Assembly: GCF_016863135.1 (NCBI RefSeq)
Contig: NZ_BOOH01000058.1
Coordinates: forward strand, 62,001 to 126,000
Origin: Planobispora longispora
Lineage (GTDB): Bacteria > Actinomycetota > Actinomycetes > Streptosporangiales > Streptosporangiaceae
DNA length: 64,000 nucleotides
Reading direction: 5' to 3'
Under the pieces are notes generated by a model, which ran no database searches, was not told the DNA's origin, and saw only the letters and a list, made by a program, of their open reading frames with translations. The number at the start of each line of letters is the position of its first letter. The stretch's first letter is position 1. Made by a program: the position numbers and the translations under genes. Positions 5,919-37,307 of the stretch are shown here, in pieces.

Positions 5919-5955
5919 CGGTGGCCCGGCGCCGCCGCACGGCGCCGGGCCACCG
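5919..5955 (-). terminator. Strong inverted repeat, terminator of acsA
   Basis: Perfect 16-base arms (5919-5934 and 5940-5955) around a 5-base loop, 22 bases beyond the acsA stop. The stem is almost pure G/C and is not followed by a T run, as is common in actinobacteria. The rest of 5716-5976 holds only the nhaA promoter region; a CTC-rich run lies at 5829-5848. Confidence 0.75.
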
Positions 5956-5976
5956 GACCTTCGAGTCAGACGAGGA

Positions 5977-7962
5977 TCAGTCCTCGCTCTTGGCGCTGGG
6001 CAGCTTCTCGGAGATGAGGTTCATCACCGTGCTGTCGGCGAGCGTGGTGACGTCGCCGATGCTGCGGTTCTCCGCCACGTCGCGGAGGAGACGCCGCATG
6101 ATCTTGCCGGAGCGCGTCTTCGGCAGCTCGGGCACCACCAGGATCTGGCGGGGCTTGGCGATCGGGCCGAGCGTCTTGGCCACGTGGGCGCGCAGCTCGG
6201 TGGCGATGTCCTCGCTCTCCTCGGCGCTGCCGCGCAGGATGACGAAGGACACGATGGCCTGGCCGGTCACCGGGTCGGTCGCGCCGACCACGGCGGCCTC
6301 GGCGACCTTCGGGTGGGAGACGAGGGCCGACTCGACCTCGGTGGTCGAGATGTTGTGGCCGGAGACGAGCATGACGTCGTCGACGCGGCCCAGCAGCCAG
6401 ATGTCGCCGTCCTCGTCCCTCTTGGAGCCGTCGCCCGCGAAGTACATCCCCTCGAACCGGGACCAGTAGGTGTCGATGTAGCGCTGGTCGTCGCCCCAGA
6501 TCGTACGGAGCATCGACGGCCACGGGTCGCGGATCGCCAGGAAGCCGCCGCCCCCGTTCGGGACGCTCTCACCCTGGTCGTCGACCACGTCGGCGGTGAT
6601 GCCGGGCAGCGGGCGCATGGCCGCGCCGGGCTTGCCGCTGGTCACGCCGGGGAGCGGGCTGATCATGATGGCGCCGGTCTCGGTCTGCCACCAGGTGTCC
6701 ACGACCGGGGTGCGGTTGCCGCCGATGTGCTCGCGGTACCAGACGTAGGCCTCGGGGTTGATCGGCTCGCCGACGCTGCCCAGGATCCGCAGGGACGACA
6801 TGTCGTACTTGGCGGGGATGTCGTCTCCCCACTTCATGAACGTGCGGATCGCGGTCGGCGCGGTGTAGAGGATCGTGACCTTGTACTTCTGCACGATCTC
6901 CCAGAACCGGCCGCGGTGCGGGGTGTCGGGGGTGCCCTCGTAGATGACGCTCGTGGCGCCGTTGGCGAGCGGGCCGTACACGATGTAGGAGTGACCGGTC
7001 ACCCAGCCGATGTCGGCGGTGCACCAGTAGATGTCGGTCTCCGGCTTGAGGTCGAAGACCGCGTGGTGGGTGTAGGCCGCCTGGGTCAGGTAGCCGCCGG
7101 TGGTGTGCAGGATGCCCTTCGGCTTACCGGTGGTGCCGCTGGTATAGAGGATGTAGAGCGGGTGCTCGGCGTCGTGCGGGACCGGGGCGTGCTCCGCGCT
7201 CTGGCGCTCCACCAGGTCGTGCCACCAGACGTCCTTGTCGGTCCACCCGACGTCCTGGCCGGTCCGGCGGACCACGAGCACGTGCTCGATGCCCGGGCAC
7301 TCCTTGACCGCCTCGTCCACGGTCGGCTTGAGCGCGCTCGGCGCGCCGCGGCGGTAGCCGCCGTCGGCGGTGACCACGACCTTGGCGTCGGCGTCCTGGA
7401 TCCGGCCGCTGAGCGCGCTGGCGGAGAACCCGCCGAAGACCACCGAGTGGATCGCGCCGATGCGGGCGCAGGCGAGCATGGTGACCGGCAGCTCGGGGAT
7501 CATCGGCATGTAGATCGCGACCCGGTCGCCCTTGCCGACGCCCAGCTCGGTCAGCGCGTTCGCCGCCTTGGAGACCTCTCTCTGGAGGTCGGCGTAGGTG
7601 ATCGTACGGCTGTCGCCCTCGGGCTCGCCCTCCCAGTGGTAGGCGACCTTGTCGCCGTTCCCGGCCTCGACGTGGCGGTCGACGCAGTTGTAGGCGATGT
7701 TCAGCTCTCCGCCGAGGAACCACTTGGCGAAGGGCGGGTTCCACTCCAGGACGGTGTGCCAGCGCCTGGACCAGCTCAGCCGGTCGGCCTGCTTCTCCCA
7801 GAAGGCCAGGCGGTCGGCCTCGGCCTCGGCGTAGGCCTGCTCGGTCACGTTCGCGGCGGCGGCGAGCTCGGCGGGAGGAGCGAACCGCCGGGTCTCGTGC
7901 AGCAGGTTCGACAGCGTCTCCTGGGTCTCACGCGGTTCGGAACCAGGGGTCTCCGGGGCCAC
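5977..7962 (-). CDS. acsA: Acetyl-coenzyme A synthetase
   Basis: A 661-residue cytosolic AMP-forming enzyme: acetate + ATP + CoA gives acetyl-CoA + AMP + PPi. Motifs of the adenylate-forming family are clear: the phosphate-binding loop [18 protein letters not shown] (A5), and the C-terminal P-K-T-R-S-G-K whose lysine (about K620) is the acetylation switch in homologues. Length matches the family. The GTG at 7962 is chosen because AAGGAG stands 6 bases upstream. It is transcribed away from the Fic-like gene; the shared upstream region carries a DasR-like site. A strong hairpin follows the stop. Confidence 0.96.
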
Positions 7963-8065: not shown

Positions 8066-8291
8066 GACAAGCGAGGCGTAACTTCGCACCGCCCCTGACG
8101 CTGCGTAGCGGCATCGGGAGAAACGTTGCGATTCCGACACCGTAGAAAGGTAGAGGGCGTTATTCCAGACACGCCGGTACGGCGGTGCGCCGGATGGCCC
8201 GATGCGCTCGGTGAACGGTCCCGGGGCGGTTCTCCCGGAAGTGGTCGTGGCGGCGTCTGCGACTTGTTAACCGGCGGGTAAGGTCGGGGCC

Positions 8292-9065
8292 GTGAGCGAC
8301 CCATTGGCTGTCATCGCCGAGATGCCCGGAGTGCCTGAAGCGGTCACCGAAGCCCGCAAGGCCGTGGACCGCCTCTACGGACACCGCGTGCTGCGGCGCA
8401 AGAGCCCCCAGGTGTCGGCGCAGTCGGCGCTGCACGGCGCCCGCGCGTCCGCCGCGCTCGACGGCGTGGACGTCCCGCTGGAGGTCATCCCGGAGGTCAC
8501 CGACCCCGTGGTGCAGGGCGCGCTGCGCGTCTCGGCCGAGCTGGGGCGGCTCGGTCCCACCTGGCGTACGGCGCCGCGTCAGGTGCTGGCCAGGTTGCAC
8601 ACGCTGGCCGCCGTCGGCCTGGCAGGAGATCTCGGCCGCCCGCGGGATTCCGCCGACGCACCCGACCCCCTCGGCCTGGGCGCCGCGCCGGGGCCGGAGG
8701 AGGCGGTGGCCCGGATGGACGGCCTGGTCGGCCTGGTGACCGGCGGTTCCAAGGCGCCCGCGCTGGTCCTGGCCGCCATCGTGCACGCCGAGCTGGCGGC
8801 GGTGCGGCCGTTCGGTTCGGCGGACGGGGTCGTCGCGAGGGCGGCGGAGCGGTTGACGCTGACGGAGTTCGGCCTGGACCCGAAGTCCCTGTCGGCGGTG
8901 GAGCTGGGGCATCTGGAACTGGGGCCGGCCTACGGGGAGAGCCTGCGCGCCTATCTGACCGGGACCGCCGACGGGGTGGCGACGTGGGTGCGCCACTGCG
9001 CCGAGGCGGTCGTGCTGGGGATCCGGGAGGCCACGGCGATCTGCGAGGCCATGCAGCGGGGCTGA
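8292..9065 (+). CDS. Fic-fold protein with degenerate catalytic motif
   Basis: A 257-residue helical protein. Residues 163-183 ([21 protein letters not shown]) align by eye with the Fic core, where active enzymes have H-P-F-x-[DE]-G-N-G-R-x-x-R and AMPylate target proteins. Here the catalytic His is Arg172 and the G-N-G-R anion hole is lost. At residues 53-58, S-A-A-L-D-G resembles the inhibitory motif [ST]-x-x-x-E-[GN] with Asp for Glu. The protein is thus probably a non-enzymatic or altered Fic relative. Similar genes sit beside acsA in other actinomycetes and have been called oxidoreductases, for which I see no support. The stop codon is embedded in a tandem repeat. Confidence 0.6.
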
Positions 9066-9140
9066 GTCATGCGGCGGGGCTGAGTCATGCGGCGGGGCTG
9101 AGTCATGCGGCGGGGCTGAGTCATGCAGCGGGGCTGAGTC
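9044..9140 (+). repeat. 18-bp tandem repeat containing the stop codon of the Fic-like gene
   Basis: The unit CTGAGTCATGCGGCGGGG is repeated at 9062, 9080, 9098 and 9116 (the last with one change) and partly before and after. Each copy keeps the reading frame and ends the same short peptide M-[RQ]-R-G-stop, so the real gene end appears to have been copied several times. A slippage origin is inferred. Confidence 0.85.
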
Positions 9141-9200
9141 ATGCGGTGCGGGCGAGCGGTCATGCGGTGCGGGCGAGCGGTCATGCGGTGCGGGCGAGCG
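9138..9200 (+). repeat. Three perfect 21-bp tandem repeats
   Basis: Three identical 21-base units begin at 9138, 9159 and 9180, each starting GTCATGCGGTGCGG. They abut the 18-base array and share its GTCATGCGG start, so one array probably gave rise to the other. Two looser copies of a roughly 20-base unit (ATGTGACGCGGCTG / GTGCGACGCGGCTG) follow to 9240. Confidence 0.85.
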
Positions 9201-9331
9201 GCCATGTGACGCGGCTGGGAGCCGTGCGACGCGGCTGACCGTTGGGCCGCGGCCGTACGGAGTCGCCGTACGGAGTCACGGAGAGGCCGGCTGTCGGCGG
9301 CTGGAATTACGGACGACCTGAAGGCAAAGCA

Positions 9332-31089: not shown

Positions 31090-31644
31090 CTAGCGAACGA
31101 TCTTGGTCTTGATCTTCTTCACGAAGTACCAGGACTTGACGCCGATGCGCTCGAACTCGTCCCGGCTCAGGTTCTCCGCGCCGTTCGGCAGGTCGACGCT
31201 GTCGACGCCCCAGTAGCCGGTCGCGGTGCCCTTGGCCTTCTTGCTCAGCTTGACGACGACCTTGATGGCGGTGCGGTCGTCGACCTCGAGGGCCTCGGGC
31301 ACGATGCACCAGTAGCCGTCCTCGTACCAGTCGCACTCCGTGCCCTCGGGGCCGTAGACCGCGCTGATCGTCGAGTTCTTCGGGGGGACGCCGCCGATCC
31401 AGTAGGAGTCCGCCAGGTGCGGGCCCAGGTTGGTGGCCGTGATCGTGTAAGAGATCTTGCCGCCGGCGCGCACCTTCTTCGGGGCCGACACCTGAACCTT
31501 GAAGGAGGAGTACGGCTCGTCGGCCGCCGTCACGGCGGCGCCGGCCTGCACGGGAGCGGCCGAGGCCGCCGGAGCGAACAGCAGGCTGCCCGCGAGCGGA
31601 ACGGCGAGGGCAAGTGCGGTGATCTTGGAGATCGGGTGGCGCAT
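31090..31644 (-). CDS. Small secreted beta-rich protein, paralogue 1 of 3 (DUF11-like)
   Basis: A 184-residue exported protein. Signal peptide 1-29 ends A-S-A-A. The mature part is an Ig-like fold resembling DUF11/CARDB repeats (V-R-A-G-G-K-I-S-Y-T-I-T-A-T-N-L-G-P). Shared with its paralogues are the G-P-x-G-x-x-C-D ... C loop, a probable disulfide, D-L-P-N-G and the C-terminus K-T-K-I-V-R. L-S-R-D-E-F near the end is shared with paralogue 3. GGGAG lies 7 bases before the ATG. Function unknown; a surface or matrix protein is likely. Confidence 0.75.
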   Translation of the reverse strand: MRHPISKITALALAVPLAGSLLFAPAASAAPVQAGAAVTAADEPYSSFKVQVSAPKKVRAGGKISYTITATNLGPHLADSYWIGGVPPKNSTISAVYGPEGTECDWYEDGYWCIVPEALEVDDRTAIKVVVKLSKKAKGTATGYWGVDSVDLPNGAENLSRDEFERIGVKSWYFVKKIKTKIVR

Positions 31645-31859: not shown

Positions 31860-32399
31860 CTATCGGACGATCCGGGTCTTCACCTTCACGTACTTCAGGT
31901 CCACGCCCGTCTCGACGCCGTGGATGTTCAGGGTGTCGAGGCCGCCCGCGGGCACGTCGATCGAGGCGCTGGCGAACTCGGCGGTCGCGGTGCCCGAGGC
32001 GCCGCTCCTGAGCCACACCTTGACCTTGACGGTGGCGGACTTGCCCGGGTTGAGGGTGTCGAGCAGGCAGCCGACCTCGCGCCCGTCGACGTCGCAGTAG
32101 GAACCGGAGGGGCCGGTGATCTGGACCTTGCGGGCCTGCTTGGGGACGTAGCCCCCGACGTAGACGATGTCGGAGTACCAGTCGCCGACGTTCTTGGCCT
32201 TGAGCGTGTAGGTGATCGTCTTGCCCGCGTAGGCCCGGCGGGGGTAGGAGGCGGTCAGCTTGATCGGCGACAGCGGGGCGGACTGCTGGGCCGCGGTGCG
32301 GGCCGGGGCGGTGTGGGTCTGGGCGCTCGCGGCGTGCGGGACGAGCAGCATGCCTCCCGCCAAGGCGGTGGCGGCGAAGGCGGTCAGGTGCCGGCGCAT
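31860..32399 (-). CDS. Small secreted beta-rich protein, paralogue 2 of 3 (DUF11-like)
   Basis: A 179-residue exported protein with signal peptide ending H-A-A-S-A. The mature domain (A-G-K-T-I-T-Y-T-L-K-A-K-N-V-G) aligns with paralogues 1 and 3 throughout, including G-P-S-G-S-Y-C-D and the second cysteine, D-V-P-A-G and the terminal K-T-R-I-V-R. It lacks the L-S-R-D-E segment of the others. GGAGT precedes the ATG. It lies 215 bases upstream of paralogue 1 on the same strand, so the two may be a tandem duplication with separate promoters. Confidence 0.75.
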   Translation of the reverse strand: MRRHLTAFAATALAGGMLLVPHAASAQTHTAPARTAAQQSAPLSPIKLTASYPRRAYAGKTITYTLKAKNVGDWYSDIVYVGGYVPKQARKVQITGPSGSYCDVDGREVGCLLDTLNPGKSATVKVKVWLRSGASGTATAEFASASIDVPAGGLDTLNIHGVETGVDLKYVKVKTRIVR

Positions 32400-32575: not shown

Positions 32576-33670
32576 CTACCTCAGGATCAGATGGAGATCG
32601 CCGAACTCGTGCCAGAGGTACCTCTCCCTCAGCGCCTCCTCGTAGGACCGGGCGAGCAGCTCCTCCCCGGTGATCGCCGACAGCATCAGCAGATGGCTGG
32701 AGCGCGGCTCGTGGAACCCGGTGATCAGGCCGTCCACCGCCCGCACCCCGGACGCCGGCGTGACGACGTGGGACGTCCAGCCGCGCGCGGCACGGACCGG
32801 CCCCCCGCCGGAGGCGGCCGTCTCCAGCGCCCGGACCACGGTCGTGCCCACCGCGATCACCCGCCCGCCCGTCTCGCGGGCGAGATCGACCTGCCGCGCC
32901 GTGCTCTCGGGCACCTCGAACCGCTCCGGATAGGGCGGTTCGTCCTTCTCCGGCGACGCCACGCCCGTGTGCAGCGTGAGGGGCGCGACCCCGATCCCGC
33001 GCGACACCAGCTCGGTGACCAGCCCGGCGGTGAACGGCCGGCCGGCGCTGGGCATCTCCGCGCTCCCCGGGACGTGGCCGAACACGGTCTGGTAGTCGGC
33101 CAGCGGCCAGTCGCGTTCCACGTAGGAGTACCGGATGGGCACGCCGTACCGGCTCAGGTAGGCGGGGACCGGCCGGTCCAGCCGGGCCCGCCACAGGCGC
33201 GGCGTCGTGCGCTCCAGCAGCCGCAGGGTGGCCCCGCCGGGCAGCGGGAGCCACTCGCCGCCGCTGCCGCCGGGGTAGGGCTCGGTGGCCGACGCCGTAC
33301 GGCGGCGCAGCTCGACCAGCCAGGTGCCGTCCTCGTGCTCGGTCGAGAAGTGCACGGCGAGCCGGTCCAGGCGGATCGCGGCGGGGAGCGTGGCGGAGTT
33401 GTTGACCACGAGCAGATCGCCCGGACGGAGCAGATGGGGCAGATCGGTGAACGCGTGATGGCCGATCTCCGCGGCCTCGTCGCCCCCCTCCCCACCGGCC
33501 CCGCCCCCACCGGCCCCGCCGTTCCGGCGGCCGCTGCCGGCCGCGCCCCGCGAGACCAGGAGGCGGACCGCGTCGCGGGGCAGGCCCCGCGCCTCCGGCG
33601 GTTCGTGCGCCTCCAGTTCCGGAGGCAGGACGAAGTCCCTCTCCAGGACGTCTGTCACGGTCTTGCCCAT
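32576..33670 (-). CDS. QueA-like SAM:tRNA ribosyltransferase-isomerase, divergent
   Basis: A 364-residue relative of QueA, the enzyme that moves the ribosyl part of SAM to 7-deazaguanine in tRNA. The fold is recognisable (D-Y-Q-T-V-F, I-A-V-G-T-T-V-V-R-A-L-E, V-D-G-L-I-T-G-F-H-E-P-R-S-S-H-L-L-M-L). Yet core motifs differ from E. coli QueA: A-A-P-T-A-G-L-H-F is E-M-P-S-A-G-R-P-F, G-A-G-T-F-Q-P-V is G-V-A-S-P-E-K-D, and the Y-P-G-F segment is absent. An unusual Gly-rich linker lies at about 45-65. No other queuosine genes are in the window. Probably cotranscribed with the SDR gene 52 bases upstream. Reaction uncertain. Confidence 0.75.
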   Translation of the reverse strand: MGKTVTDVLERDFVLPPELEAHEPPEARGLPRDAVRLLVSRGAAGSGRRNGGAGGGGAGGEGGDEAAEIGHHAFTDLPHLLRPGDLLVVNNSATLPAAIRLDRLAVHFSTEHEDGTWLVELRRRTASATEPYPGGSGGEWLPLPGGATLRLLERTTPRLWRARLDRPVPAYLSRYGVPIRYSYVERDWPLADYQTVFGHVPGSAEMPSAGRPFTAGLVTELVSRGIGVAPLTLHTGVASPEKDEPPYPERFEVPESTARQVDLARETGGRVIAVGTTVVRALETAASGGGPVRAARGWTSHVVTPASGVRAVDGLITGFHEPRSSHLLMLSAITGEELLARSYEEALRERYLWHEFGDLHLILR

Positions 33671-33722
33671 GGCTCCCCCTCCGCTGCCGCGGTGTCCGTG
33701 CGCCGTCCGTGTCCGCCGGCGC

Positions 33723-34388
33723 TCATGCGTGACTCACCCGCCCGCTGGCCGGGCGCTCCCGGATCAGCCGGAGCAGCGTGGGCACGACCGTCTCGGGGCC
33801 GGGAGCCGCCGCGGCCTCCCCGGCGCCGACCGCGTCGGCGAGCATGACCGTGTTCATCTCGCCCGGGTCCACCCACCAGACCGCGACCCCGGGCTCCTCG
33901 ACGGCCAGCACGTGGGAGATCTGGTCCAGCGCGGCCTTGGTCGCGCCGTAGCCGCCCCAGCCCTCGTAGGCCTCCACCGCCGCGTCGGAGGAGATGTTCA
34001 CGACCGCGCCGCCCCGCTCCCGCAGGCTCGGGATGACCGCCTGGATCAGTGCCAGCGGGGCCAGCACGTTGGTGCCGAACAGGTCCGCCAGGACGTCCAG
34101 CGGGTAGGAGGCCAGCGGCGGCAGCGGCGTCGCACCCAGCCCGGAGGCGTTGTTGACCAGCAGGTCCAGCCCGCCGTGGTCCCGTACGGCCCGCGCCAGC
34201 CGCTCCCGGTGCGCCGGGTCCGCCACGTCCCCGGCGAGGGCGAGGGCGCCGACCTCGTCCGCCACGGGCTTGAGCGGGTCCGCGCCGCGCGCTGTGAGGA
34301 TGAGCCGCCAGCCGTCCGCGGCCAGGCTGCGGGCCAGGGCCAGGCCCAGTCCGCGGGAGGCGCCGGTGATGAGTGCTGTCTTCGTCAT
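33723..34388 (-). CDS. Short-chain dehydrogenase/reductase
   Basis: A 221-residue NAD(P)-dependent oxidoreductase. T-G-A-S-R-G-L-G (7-14) is the cofactor motif, N-N-A-S the structural motif, and S-S plus Y-G-A-T-K the catalytic Ser-Tyr-Lys set. Arginine after S in the glycine motif suggests NADPH. Start ATG 34388 reads M-T-K-T-A-L-I-T-G. It precedes the QueA-like gene by 52 bases on the same strand and may act in the same pathway; substrate unknown. Confidence 0.88.
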   Translation of the reverse strand: MTKTALITGASRGLGLALARSLAADGWRLILTARGADPLKPVADEVGALALAGDVADPAHRERLARAVRDHGGLDLLVNNASGLGATPLPPLASYPLDVLADLFGTNVLAPLALIQAVIPSLRERGGAVVNISSDAAVEAYEGWGGYGATKAALDQISHVLAVEEPGVAVWWVDPGEMNTVMLADAVGAGEAAAAPGPETVVPTLLRLIRERPASGRVSHA

Positions 34389-34532
34389 GGTTGTGACGCT
34401 AGGAAACCGGCGCCCGCCGTACATCGGCCGCGGGACCGGTCGTGTCCGGGCCGATGGGCCTAGGACGGCCGCCCCTGGGCCTAGGACCGATGACGCGGTC
34501 CGGTGACCGGCCTGGTTGCCTAGAGTTTTGTT

Positions 34533-35735
34533 GTGAGTTCCGAAAGCCCGGCACATCCCGAAAGCCCGGCACGTCCCGAAAGCCCGGCACGCTCCCCGAG
34601 CTCCGCGGGGGCGGAGATCGAGGGCCTGGACGCCGTCCTGCAGGCCGTGAGTTCCGCCGTGCTCGCGGTGACCAGGCACCTGTCGGTGCGCGAGGTGCTC
34701 CAGGTGATCGTCCGCTCCGCGCAGTGTCTCCTGGACGCGCGGTACGCGGCCCTGGGAGTGCCCGACGAGGACGGGGCGTTCGCCGAGTTCGTCGCCGAGG
34801 GCATCTCCGACGAGGAGTGGGAGGCCATCGGCCCGACGCCCCGCCAGCACGGGATGCTGGGGGCGATGCTGCGCGAGGGCGCGCCGGTCCGGCTGCCCGA
34901 CATCCGCCGCGACCCCCGGTTCGAGTACTGGCCGCGGGCCCATCCGGTGCTGAAGGACTTCCTCGGGGTGCCGATCCGCGACGGCGACCAGGTGCTCGGC
35001 ATCATCTTCCTGTCCAACAAGCGGATCCCCGGCGGGTTCACCGAGGACGACCAGCGGCTGCTGACCATGTTCGCCGCGCACGCGGCGATCGCCCTCACCA
35101 ACGCCCGCCTCTACGAGAACGGCCGGGAGCTCGCGCTGGTGGAAGAACGCACCCGGATGGCGCGGGAGCTGCACGACGCGGTGACCCAGAAGCTGTTCTC
35201 CCTGCGCCTGACCGCCCAGGCGGCGGCCTCACTGGTCACCCGCGACCCGGAACGGGCGCTGGGGGAGCTGGAGCGGGTCGAGCGGCTCGCCGGTGAGGCC
35301 CTCGCCGAGCTCCGGGCGGTGATCGTGGAACTGCGCCCGGCGGAACTCGACCGCCACGGCCTGCCCGAGACGCTCCGCAAGCATGTCCGCCTGCTGGACC
35401 GGCTCCACCCGGCGTCGTTCACGTTCGAGGAGCGGCCGGTCTGCGTGCCCGATCCGGCGACCGAGGTGGCGGTGCTGCGGGTGGCGCAGGAGGCCCTGCA
35501 CAACGCCTCCCGGCACGCGGCGGCGGAGACGGTGGCGGTACGGCTCGGCTGCGAGGACGGCCTGGTCGTCCTGGAGGTGCGGGACGACGGGACCGGCTTC
35601 GACGTGGCCGCGGCCGCCGGGCGCGGGCTGGGCATCGCGTCGATGGGCGACCGGGCTCAGGCGCTGGGCGGGAGCCTGCGGGTGACGTCGGAGCCGGGCC
35701 GCGGCACGCTGGTGCGGATGGAGGTGCCGGTGTGA
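34533..35735 (+). CDS. GAF-domain sensor histidine kinase (HisKA_3/NarL type)
   Basis: A 400-residue soluble kinase. Residues 1-25 are three S-P-A-[HR]-P-E repeats; a GAF domain occupies about 38-190; the HisKA_3 phosphoacceptor is H214 in R-M-A-R-E-L-H-D-A-V-T-Q-K; the HATPase has E-A-L-H-N-A-S-R-H and D-D-G-T-G-F and G-L-G-I-A-S-M. No membrane segment, so it senses a cytosolic signal; no heme-binding His can be assigned with confidence. Coupled to the response regulator by GTGA. Confidence 0.92.
   Translation: MSSESPAHPESPARPESPARSPSSAGAEIEGLDAVLQAVSSAVLAVTRHLSVREVLQVIVRSAQCLLDARYAALGVPDEDGAFAEFVAEGISDEEWEAIGPTPRQHGMLGAMLREGAPVRLPDIRRDPRFEYWPRAHPVLKDFLGVPIRDGDQVLGIIFLSNKRIPGGFTEDDQRLLTMFAAHAAIALTNARLYENGRELALVEERTRMARELHDAVTQKLFSLRLTAQAAASLVTRDPERALGELERVERLAGEALAELRAVIVELRPAELDRHGLPETLRKHVRLLDRLHPASFTFEERPVCVPDPATEVAVLRVAQEALHNASRHAAAETVAVRLGCEDGLVVLEVRDDGTGFDVAAAAGRGLGIASMGDRAQALGGSLRVTSEPGRGTLVRMEVPV
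34542..34595 (+). repeat. Three 18-bp tandem repeats in the kinase N-terminus
   Basis: Units GAAAGCCCGGCACATCCC and two near-identical copies begin at 34542, 34560 and 34578 and encode E-S-P-A-[HR]-P repeats directly after the start codon. Confidence 0.85.
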
Positions 35736-36388
35736 TCCGGGTGCTGATCGCCGACGACCATCCGGTCGTCAGACAGGGGCTGCGCACCTTCCTGGACCTG
35801 CAGGACGACCTCGACGTGGTGGGAGAGGCGGGTGACGGGGCCGAGGCGGTGGACCTGGTGGAGTCGCTCTCCCCGGACGTGCTCCTGCTCGATCTGAAGA
35901 TGCCGGTCCTCGACGGTCTCGGCACGCTGGTACGGCTCGCCGAGCGGGGCCTGACGCCGCGCGTGCTGGTGCTGACCTCGGTCAGCGACCGCGGTGACGT
36001 GGCCCCGGCGATGCGGGCCGGGGCGGCGGGGTTCCTCTACAAGGACGTCGAGCCCACGGCGCTCGTCCAGGCCGTCCGCGCGGTCCACGGCGGGCAGGTG
36101 CTGCTGGCCCCCGAGGCCGCCGAGGCCATGCTGGCCGGCGCGGGCCGGGACCGTCCCGAGCGGGCCGATCCCGCGCCGTCCCGGGCCGAGCCGGTCGCGC
36201 CGCTGACCGACCGCGAACGCGAGGTGCTCGTCCTGATCGCCTCCGGCCGTTCCAACCGGGAGATCGCCCGGGATCTGGCGGTGGCGGAGAAGACGGTGAA
36301 GACGCACGTCTCCAACGTCCTGATGAAACTGGGCGTGCAGGACAGGACCCAGGCCGCGCTGTACGCCGTACGGCACGGCCTGGCCTGA
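35732..36388 (+). CDS. NarL/LuxR-family response regulator
   Basis: A 218-residue partner of the GAF kinase. Receiver with D8-D9 and phosphoacceptor D54 (L-L-L-D-L-K-M-P), K in F-L-Y-K-D; LuxR helix-turn-helix L-T-D-R-E-R-E-V-L-V-L-I-A-S-G-R-S-N-R-E-I-A. Start GTG overlaps the kinase stop. Targets are unknown; the divergent secreted-protein gene downstream ends against it, with a hairpin between. Confidence 0.93.
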   Translation: MIRVLIADDHPVVRQGLRTFLDLQDDLDVVGEAGDGAEAVDLVESLSPDVLLLDLKMPVLDGLGTLVRLAERGLTPRVLVLTSVSDRGDVAPAMRAGAAGFLYKDVEPTALVQAVRAVHGGQVLLAPEAAEAMLAGAGRDRPERADPAPSRAEPVAPLTDREREVLVLIASGRSNREIARDLAVAEKTVKTHVSNVLMKLGVQDRTQAALYAVRHGLA

Positions 36389-36461: not shown

Positions 36462-37139
36462 TCAGGTGTCCTTCTTCTCCTCGCGCCGGTCCGGCGGCGG
36501 CGGGGGCTGGGGCGGCGGCGGGGGCGTGTAGGTGCGGTCGCCGCCACTGCTGCGGCGCGGGGGCGCCGGGTGAACGATCTTGGTCTTCACCGTCTTGGTG
36601 ATGTACCAGTGAGGGAAGTTCATGCGCTTCCACTCGTCGCGGCTGAGGTCGTCACCGCCGGTGGGGACGTTCCAGGTGTCCACGCCCAGCCTGGCGACGG
36701 CGGTGCCCTTGGTCTTCTTCTTGAGCTTGACCCAGATCCTCAGCGACTCCGACTCGCCCTTTTCGAGGATCCACGGCGTCCAGCACCAGAAGCCGTCGTC
36801 GTAGAAGTCGCACTCGGTCCCCTTGGGACCCTTGTAGTAGACGGTGTCGTTGATCCCCCGGGGCAGGAGGGTCCCGCCGATGTAGTAGTAGTCGGCGGCC
36901 TCGGGTCCGGTGTTGCTGACCTTGACCTCGTACATGAACTCCTGGCCGTTGCGGACCCGCTTCGGAGCCTTGATCGAAATCTTGAAGTTGGACCAGGGCT
37001 TGTCGAGCGCGGCCCGCGCCGGGGCCGAGGAGGACGCCGCGGGGGTGGCGGGGCCGGCGGTGGCGGCCGACGCGGTGGGCGCGACCGCCATGGGTGTGAG
37101 GAGGCCGAGGCCTAGGAGCATGCCGAATGTTCGGCGCAT
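36462..37139 (-). CDS. Small secreted beta-rich protein, paralogue 3 of 3, with Pro-rich tail
   Basis: A 225-residue exported protein. Signal peptide ends T-A-S-A-A. The core matches paralogue 1 closely: P-W-S-N-F-K, A-P-K-R-V-R-N-G, G-P-K-G-T-E-C-D-F-Y-D-D-G-F-W-C, L-S-R-D-E-W and K-T-V-K-T-K-I-V-H. Unlike the others it continues for 30 or so residues with a polyproline tail and a charged end (R-R-E-E-K-K-D-T), as seen in wall-spanning proteins. ATG 37139 has GGAGA 6 bases upstream. Divergent from the WD40 kinase. Confidence 0.75.
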   Translation of the reverse strand: MRRTFGMLLGLGLLTPMAVAPTASAATAGPATPAASSSAPARAALDKPWSNFKISIKAPKRVRNGQEFMYEVKVSNTGPEAADYYYIGGTLLPRGINDTVYYKGPKGTECDFYDDGFWCWTPWILEKGESESLRIWVKLKKKTKGTAVARLGVDTWNVPTGGDDLSRDEWKRMNFPHWYITKTVKTKIVHPAPPRRSSGGDRTYTPPPPPQPPPPPDRREEKKDT

Positions 37140-37307
37140 GGGCGTCTCCGCGCGGATGAGGGGCTGAGAAATCATCACTCGCCATGACAACTATCACTTT
37201 GGTGAACTATCTCAAAGCTAGGATGATCTACCTGAGTTTGCCTGATTGTCGCGTATTAGGTGTTCCGGAAGACGCCGCCGGCTCCAGGCCAGTGACGGGA
37301 GGTTCAC

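Follow-up and report, generated by a model that had tools for sequence, protein, structure and literature searches.

The window, a 64,000-nucleotide stretch of Planobispora longispora DNA, contains a gene pair encoding a short-chain dehydrogenase/reductase (SDR) and a protein resembling QueA (tRNA preQ1(34) S-adenosylmethionine ribosyltransferase-isomerase), which raises the question of whether the latter is a queuosine enzyme or acts on something other than preQ1 in tRNA. The QueA reaction, a ribose transfer with rearrangement, ranks among the strangest ways in which SAM is used, and to our knowledge its chemistry has been described only for tRNA. A widespread separate branch of QueA-like proteins, with a near-obligate SDR partner and a redox-sensor neighbour in several lineages, would mean that this chemistry has been recruited elsewhere. 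The features of the locus are collected in Table 1. Both reading frames of the pair are real and are kept as proteins in relatives. On either side of the pair are small DUF11 proteins, three in all (window positions 31090–31644, 31860–32399, and 36462–37190), and similar ones recur at the loci of relatives.

Table 1. Features of the SDR/QueA-like locus, in window coordinates
Feature	Position	Strand	Remarks
QueA-like protein, 364 aa	32576..33670	-	ATG at 33670, stop at 32576; non-queuosine branch of PF02547; signature EMPSAGR + WHEFGD
Spacer between SDR and QueA-like genes, 52 nt	33671..33722	-	4-nt stop/start overlap instead in 37/62 relatives
Dedicated SDR, 221 aa	33723..34388	-	ATG at 34388, stop at 33723; SDA...W...YGxxK signature
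Divergent promoter region between SDR and histidine kinase genes, 144 bp	34389..34532	.	
Conserved element GGNCCNNNGNCCNAT	34423..34437	-	Starts 49 nt upstream of SDR start; candidate response-regulator site
Second GGNCCNNNGNCCNAT copy, opposite orientation	34477..34491	+	
Sensor histidine kinase with GAF, HisKA_3, and HATPase_c	34533..35735	+	Divergent neighbour of the pair
NarL-type response regulator, receiver and LuxR HTH	35732..36388	+	Adjoins the kinase gene

Comparison of the QueA-like protein with QueA

Like QueA (TIGR00113, PF02547; 1vky, 1wdi, and 1yy3), the window protein retains the core positions and contains the Queuosine_synth domain and the QueA fold over its full length, in agreement with the fold originally predicted, and it is 32% identical to E. 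coli QueA. The curated QueA equivalog cut-off is nevertheless missed, with scores of about half the threshold for both TIGR00113 (132 bits versus a cut-off of 267.45; E. coli QueA, 567.8 bits) and NF001140 (167.5 bits versus a cut-off of 324; E. coli QueA, 513.8 bits). The three motif replacements that had been pointed out are all present, with E-M-P-S-A-G-R-P-F (residues 205–213) in place of A-A-P-T-A-G-L-H-F (residues 177–185 in E. coli), G-V-A-S-P-E-K-D (residues 236–243) in place of G-A-G-T-F-Q-P-V, and T-P-A-S aligned with Y-P-G-F. A motif check against the QueA alignment found the QueA-invariant motifs APTAG[LF]H, GTFxP, and PLPPY to be absent from the QueA-like protein. Whereas A[AP]PTAG[LF]H is present in 26/26 actinobacterial QueAs, the motifs E-[MA]-[PA]-S-A and HEFGD are each absent from all 26 and occur together in 63 of the 64 family members tested, the exception (locus L143) lacking the first motif, so that the differences are fixed in the subfamily and not due to chance. 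The reported loss of a histidine holds for the position of QueA H184, but a different histidine, invariant in 27/27 QueAs and 69/69 relatives compared, is kept as H320. The further assumption that the altered segments contact SAM and the tRNA base is not established, as the T. maritima and B. subtilis QueA structures are without substrates and the mode of SAM or tRNA binding is described as unclear in section 2.5.2 of a 2023 review (PMC10491745), where the reaction itself, by way of an ylide, a vinyl sulfonium, and an epoxide, is presented as a proposal; an earlier text treats QueA as a SAM fold (PMC1282579). What is said here of individual residues is accordingly inferred.

When 69 QueA-like proteins were compared with 27 QueAs, 40 columns carried the same residue at ≥90% conservation in both groups, including those of YQT, GTTxxRxxE, TxxH, and FGD; one of these columns is the start Met, which was set by script, leaving 39 shared positions. 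Another 20 columns are conserved at ≥90% within each group but with different residues, and at these a Rhizobium protein has the QueA-like residue in ten and the QueA residue in two. The simplest reading of this column conservation is that a SAM-handling core has been kept and combined with a new acceptor side. It is fairly likely that the enzyme uses SAM, its chemistry with this cofactor being probably preserved because the core residues of QueA, on which this reading rests, are preserved. Alternatively, the protein could be a non-catalytic member of the fold, such as a SAM-sensing subunit of the SDR, which would fit the many changed QueA-invariant residues and the strict pairing with the SDR; the 39 positions conserved in both groups, however, suggest that an active site has been kept and render this reading very improbable. 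The mean net charges of −4.1 (69 QueA-like rows) and −2.0 (27 QueA rows) overlap widely and are indecisive on RNA binding, and in all three genomes having both proteins the QueA-like one is the more acidic.

Independence of the QueA-like branch from queuosine synthesis

In a tree of 70 proteins built by maximum likelihood, a 100/99 branch separates the 27 QueAs, E. coli QueA among them, from the window protein, which shares its side with 39 relatives found in the phylum and two proteins encoded on Rhizobium plasmids. Set against characterized QueA in this way, the window protein thus falls outside QueA, in a clade of its own. A third QueA-like lineage is represented by G061, which is 36% identical to the window protein and lies next to QueA on a long branch; its gene (locus L059, positions 8152–9243) is followed by genes for a flavin-type oxidoreductase and an APH-type phosphotransferase. 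This homologue (L059, also L156), which is without an SDR, was excluded from the family counts, as was the 44-residue fragment G001.

The enzyme TGT is needed for preQ1 to enter tRNA. No match to TGT was obtained in the genome of the window, which is 99.96% complete, or in any of the 101 genomes sampled in its order, using a search that was positive in 14/14 control genomes. QueG likewise gave no match in the window's genome (the QueG search being positive in 7/14 controls). The sole QueC match there was weak (21.5 bits over 65 of 210 positions) and was not counted because it lies in an open reading frame that reads as a GMP synthase by sequence. The suggested check for tgt, QueG, and QueC therefore returned none of the three. 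In contrast to QueA, the window protein is accompanied by an SDR gene and not by tgt.

A model of the branch identified it in 81 of 396 genomes of the phylum; in the window's order, 45 of the 101 genomes have it. In the phylum search, whose E-value limit of 1e-60 also admits real QueA, the separation was good, with members scoring at least 257 bits (fragments included) and others at most 232 bits, a split that was read from the score list. Fifty-six of the 81 carriers are without TGT, 45 of these being ≥90% complete, and the 25 carriers with TGT comprise 23 from one family together with G474 and G256. The cross-table of branch and TGT contains 240 of the 241 TGT genomes tallied, with no TGT-free carrier among the TGT rows listed; the corresponding Fisher test (p = 1.7e-9) ignores kinship and was given no weight. 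In the three carriers with TGT that were opened (G198, G316, and G474), tgt has a real QueA gene as its neighbour, whereas the QueA-like gene lies at a different place. The mostly TGT-free carriers and the co-existence with a genuine queA-tgt pair show that the branch does not depend on the queuosine pathway and has not arisen by its decay. A phage origin was rejected, as no relative turned up when viral contigs were scanned twice. Two branch matches per genome were seen in G348 and G479, the second in G479 being partial. In family f6, two genomes of genus g34 (G138 and G174) have TGT without any QueA match, and the same genus also holds genomes with the QueA-like gene and without TGT, such as G196 and G250.

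The QueA-like protein is almost certainly not a queuosine enzyme. The label of ordinary QueA has been applied to it in Streptomyces, a 2016 table giving S. coelicolor SCO1804 as QueA among tRNA enzymes (PMC4932002), and such an enzyme might be kept for salvaged preQ1 or queuosine. Identity with ordinary QueA is rejected on the strength of the sub-threshold scores, the separate clade, and the absence of TGT from the window's genome and the 101 genomes of its order, and with a real QueA co-existing in other genomes the salvage explanation is scarcely credible. Our results thus strongly support the original prediction that the protein acts on something other than preQ1-tRNA. If the branch is read correctly, QueA labels such as that of SCO1804 are called in question.

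The SDR partner

The SDR of the window has complete nucleotide-binding and catalytic motifs of the short-chain dehydrogenase/reductase superfamily (PF00106), with TGxxxGxG, Ser, and YxxxK all present. TGxxxGxG, S134, Y147, K151, and R34 are invariant in 19 aligned relatives, and R34 suggests that the cofactor is NADPH. Equally invariant in these relatives are D135, W144, and D174, which set this SDR apart from the superfamily at large as a subfamily of its own that tracks the QueA-like gene.

Among 74 stretches examined, including the window, three did not contain family members (G061 twice and one fragment), and at 69 of the remaining 71 loci the QueA-like gene is accompanied on its own strand by an SDR of a single cluster, with a transporter gene in between in four; a 1-kb piece duplicating another locus (L153) was left out. 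The two exceptions are L043, which lies at a contig edge and retains a remnant of the SDR, and L055, where a transporter gene takes the place of the SDR. At 80 named loci from Streptosporangium, Nonomuraea, Actinomadura, Streptomyces, Micromonospora, Glycomyces, Catenulispora, and others, drawn from at least 554 confirmed relatives, an SDR lies within 2.5 kb upstream in 79, and the sole miss (L185) starts 1.3 kb from the contig end. The two counts overlap, as some genomes are in both sets (for example, L157 is G040). A model of the SDR matched 45 of the 101 genomes in the order, namely 43 of the 45 with a QueA-like gene and, more weakly (229–231 bits), 2 of the 56 others; the QueA-like genomes it missed are G041, which has the transporter instead (L055), and G081, in which the SDR reading frame is incomplete (L050). 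At 37 of 62 loci the SDR and QueA-like genes share exactly 4 nt, compared with the gap seen in the window, and at 50 of the 62 the stop codon of the SDR is overlapped by a start codon that is in frame, start codons having been chosen by script and the loci L050, L133, L138, L145, L146, and L148, as well as those without an SDR call, having been dropped. In a mirror-tree comparison, SDR and QueA-like distances are correlated (Pearson 0.89, Spearman 0.70; 64 pairs), but this was not used because shared species history alone can yield such a correlation.

The coupling to an SDR, first noted at this locus, is thereby far stronger than one window could show, and the QueA-like protein and its dedicated SDR are shown to be passed on together as a near-obligate pair. 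That the SDR functions in the pathway of the QueA-like protein is very likely. No description of the pair was found in open-licence literature. Judging from numbering and annotation, SCO1804 and SCO1803 would be this pair in S. coelicolor, where a Ser139Phe substitution in a sco1803 homologue is given in a 2024 paper as one of four mutations in a mutant with diminished secondary metabolites; that work pursued ccr1, another of the four (PMC11272600).

Regulators, neighbouring genes, and proposed function

In the window's order and at the named Streptomyces loci, the pair is divergent from genes for a GAF histidine kinase and a NarL-type regulator, the kinase being present at 74 and the regulator at 75 of the 80 named loci (of at least 554 relatives), and at L127–L129, L139, and L143 both of these genes are found upstream and have the orientation of the pair. 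At 15 other actinobacterial loci their place is taken by a divergent soxR, and the SoxR protein of one of them, L134, reaches 181 bits with the SoxR model TIGR01950 (cut-off 116.9), against which one Rhizobium SoxR was also checked. Plasmids from Rhizobium lentis, R. etli, and strains T136 and NXC14 have the annotated order soxR, SDR, QueA-like gene, with soxR divergent, in all four annotated neighbourhoods opened from 32 Rhizobium records with a match. None of the Streptosporangiales or Streptomyces loci examined, the window included, has a soxR neighbour, and the one clear SoxR gene in the window's genome is on another contig than the pair.

The SoxR box, which we take to be CCTCAAGN4CTTGAGG, barely stands out in the SoxR-type promoters (3–7 mismatches of 14 versus a shuffled mean of ~5.4). 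A palindrome refitted on these promoters, TTSAAGTNNACTTSAA, was found with at most two mismatches in 13 of 16 SoxR-type promoters, 0/50 others, and 1/3200 shuffles, after L133, L138, L145, and L148, at which the SDR call was uncertain, had been dropped; it starts 32–72 nt upstream of the SDR in the 13, while three of the 16 have no good site and the promoter of the window does not contain it (best match, 6 mismatches). The element GGNCCNNNGNCCNAT, which may resemble DevR/DosR sites, occurs, when one mismatch is allowed, in 37 of 43 kinase-type promoters (4.7 expected), 0/14 SoxR-type promoters, and 1/8 others, and in the kinase-type promoters mostly begins 48–50 nt ahead of the SDR. For both elements the counts include promoters from which the element was itself derived. 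Control by SoxR is probable in some actinobacteria and in Rhizobium, and in the window's lineage the GAF kinase and NarL-type regulator perhaps act on the repeated promoter sites. As the Streptosporangiales and Streptomyces loci are without a soxR neighbour, redox control in that lineage would be by analogy only, although redox or stress regulation of the pair in general is likely. Known units of the SoxR regulon combine a divergent soxR with a detoxifying oxidoreductase. The related loci resemble these in having soxR divergent to an oxidoreductase gene and a palindrome like the SoxR box but differ in the QueA-like protein as second gene, of which no report for a SoxR unit was found in open-licence literature, and the window pair differs further in being without an adjacent soxR.

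Further neighbours are lineage-limited and may be positional. A gene of an MFS cluster is located at the pair in five loci (Pfam-checked in L055), lying between the SDR and QueA-like genes in L052, L053, L063, and L066 and replacing the SDR in L055. In L122–L125 (family f6), genes of the AMP-binding and enoyl-CoA-hydratase types, identified by Pfam in L122, follow the pair on the same strand, and upstream of it are soxR and the gene for a large cluster-31 protein.

The separate branch, the fixed pairing with an SDR, and the mostly missing queuosine machinery probably indicate a chemistry other than that of QueA. We find it somewhat probable, on balance, that the pair is a regulated two-enzyme module in which QueA-like SAM chemistry on an acceptor other than preQ1-tRNA is combined with an SDR under stress or redox control. 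A small molecule as acceptor is moderately favoured because of the SDR partner, the stress-type regulators, the transporter-cluster gene at five loci, and the AMP-binding and hydratase-type genes at four. In the proposed mechanism the QueA-like enzyme would deprotonate SAM with loss of adenine, after which a nucleophile of the acceptor, such as an amine of a small molecule, would add to the vinyl sulfonium, followed by ring closure and release of methionine. The SDR, with its intact catalytic set and NADP-type Arg, would reduce or oxidize the same acceptor or the product, so that a redox-related metabolite would be inactivated, exported, or made when the sensor fires.

RNA as acceptor is possible but rather unlikely; a ribosyl or cyclopentyl group derived from SAM would be added at another position in tRNA or rRNA, a modification that the SDR would finish as QueG or QueH does for queuosine. 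QueA as described in the review acts on tRNA (PMC10491745), the whole fold is retained, and the SDR could replace the missing reductase, QueG being absent. The patchy presence in 45 of the 101 genomes of one order, the soxR or two-component neighbours, the SDR partner, and the replacement of residues fixed in QueA nevertheless argue against an RNA substrate, and a genome without TGT would have no preQ1 in its tRNA. A cleavage of SAM without any acceptor, or repair of SAM or of a damaged SAM by-product with reduction of the freed sugar aldehyde or ketone by the SDR, would be compatible with the conserved core and changed QueA-specific motifs, the catalytically intact SDR, and the stress-type regulators; however, a general repair function would predict a presence wider than 81 of 396 genomes, and this explanation is improbable. 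Returning to the small-molecule module, its broadest form can be put forward only tentatively, namely that the QueA fold has a second, non-RNA role in many actinobacteria and rhizobia, where, with a dedicated SDR and under SoxR or two-component control, it would transfer a SAM-derived ribosyl or cyclopentyl group to a small molecule and has been mislabelled as queuosine biosynthesis.

A further QueA homologue, encoded on the Sinorhizobium meliloti GR4 plasmid pRmeGR4a (L254, positions 5923–6948), has no adjacent SDR and stands in a run of genes for an NTF2-like protein, two radical SAM proteins, an annotated diaminopimelate decarboxylase, and a CPBP protease, which looks like a small-molecule or peptide cluster.
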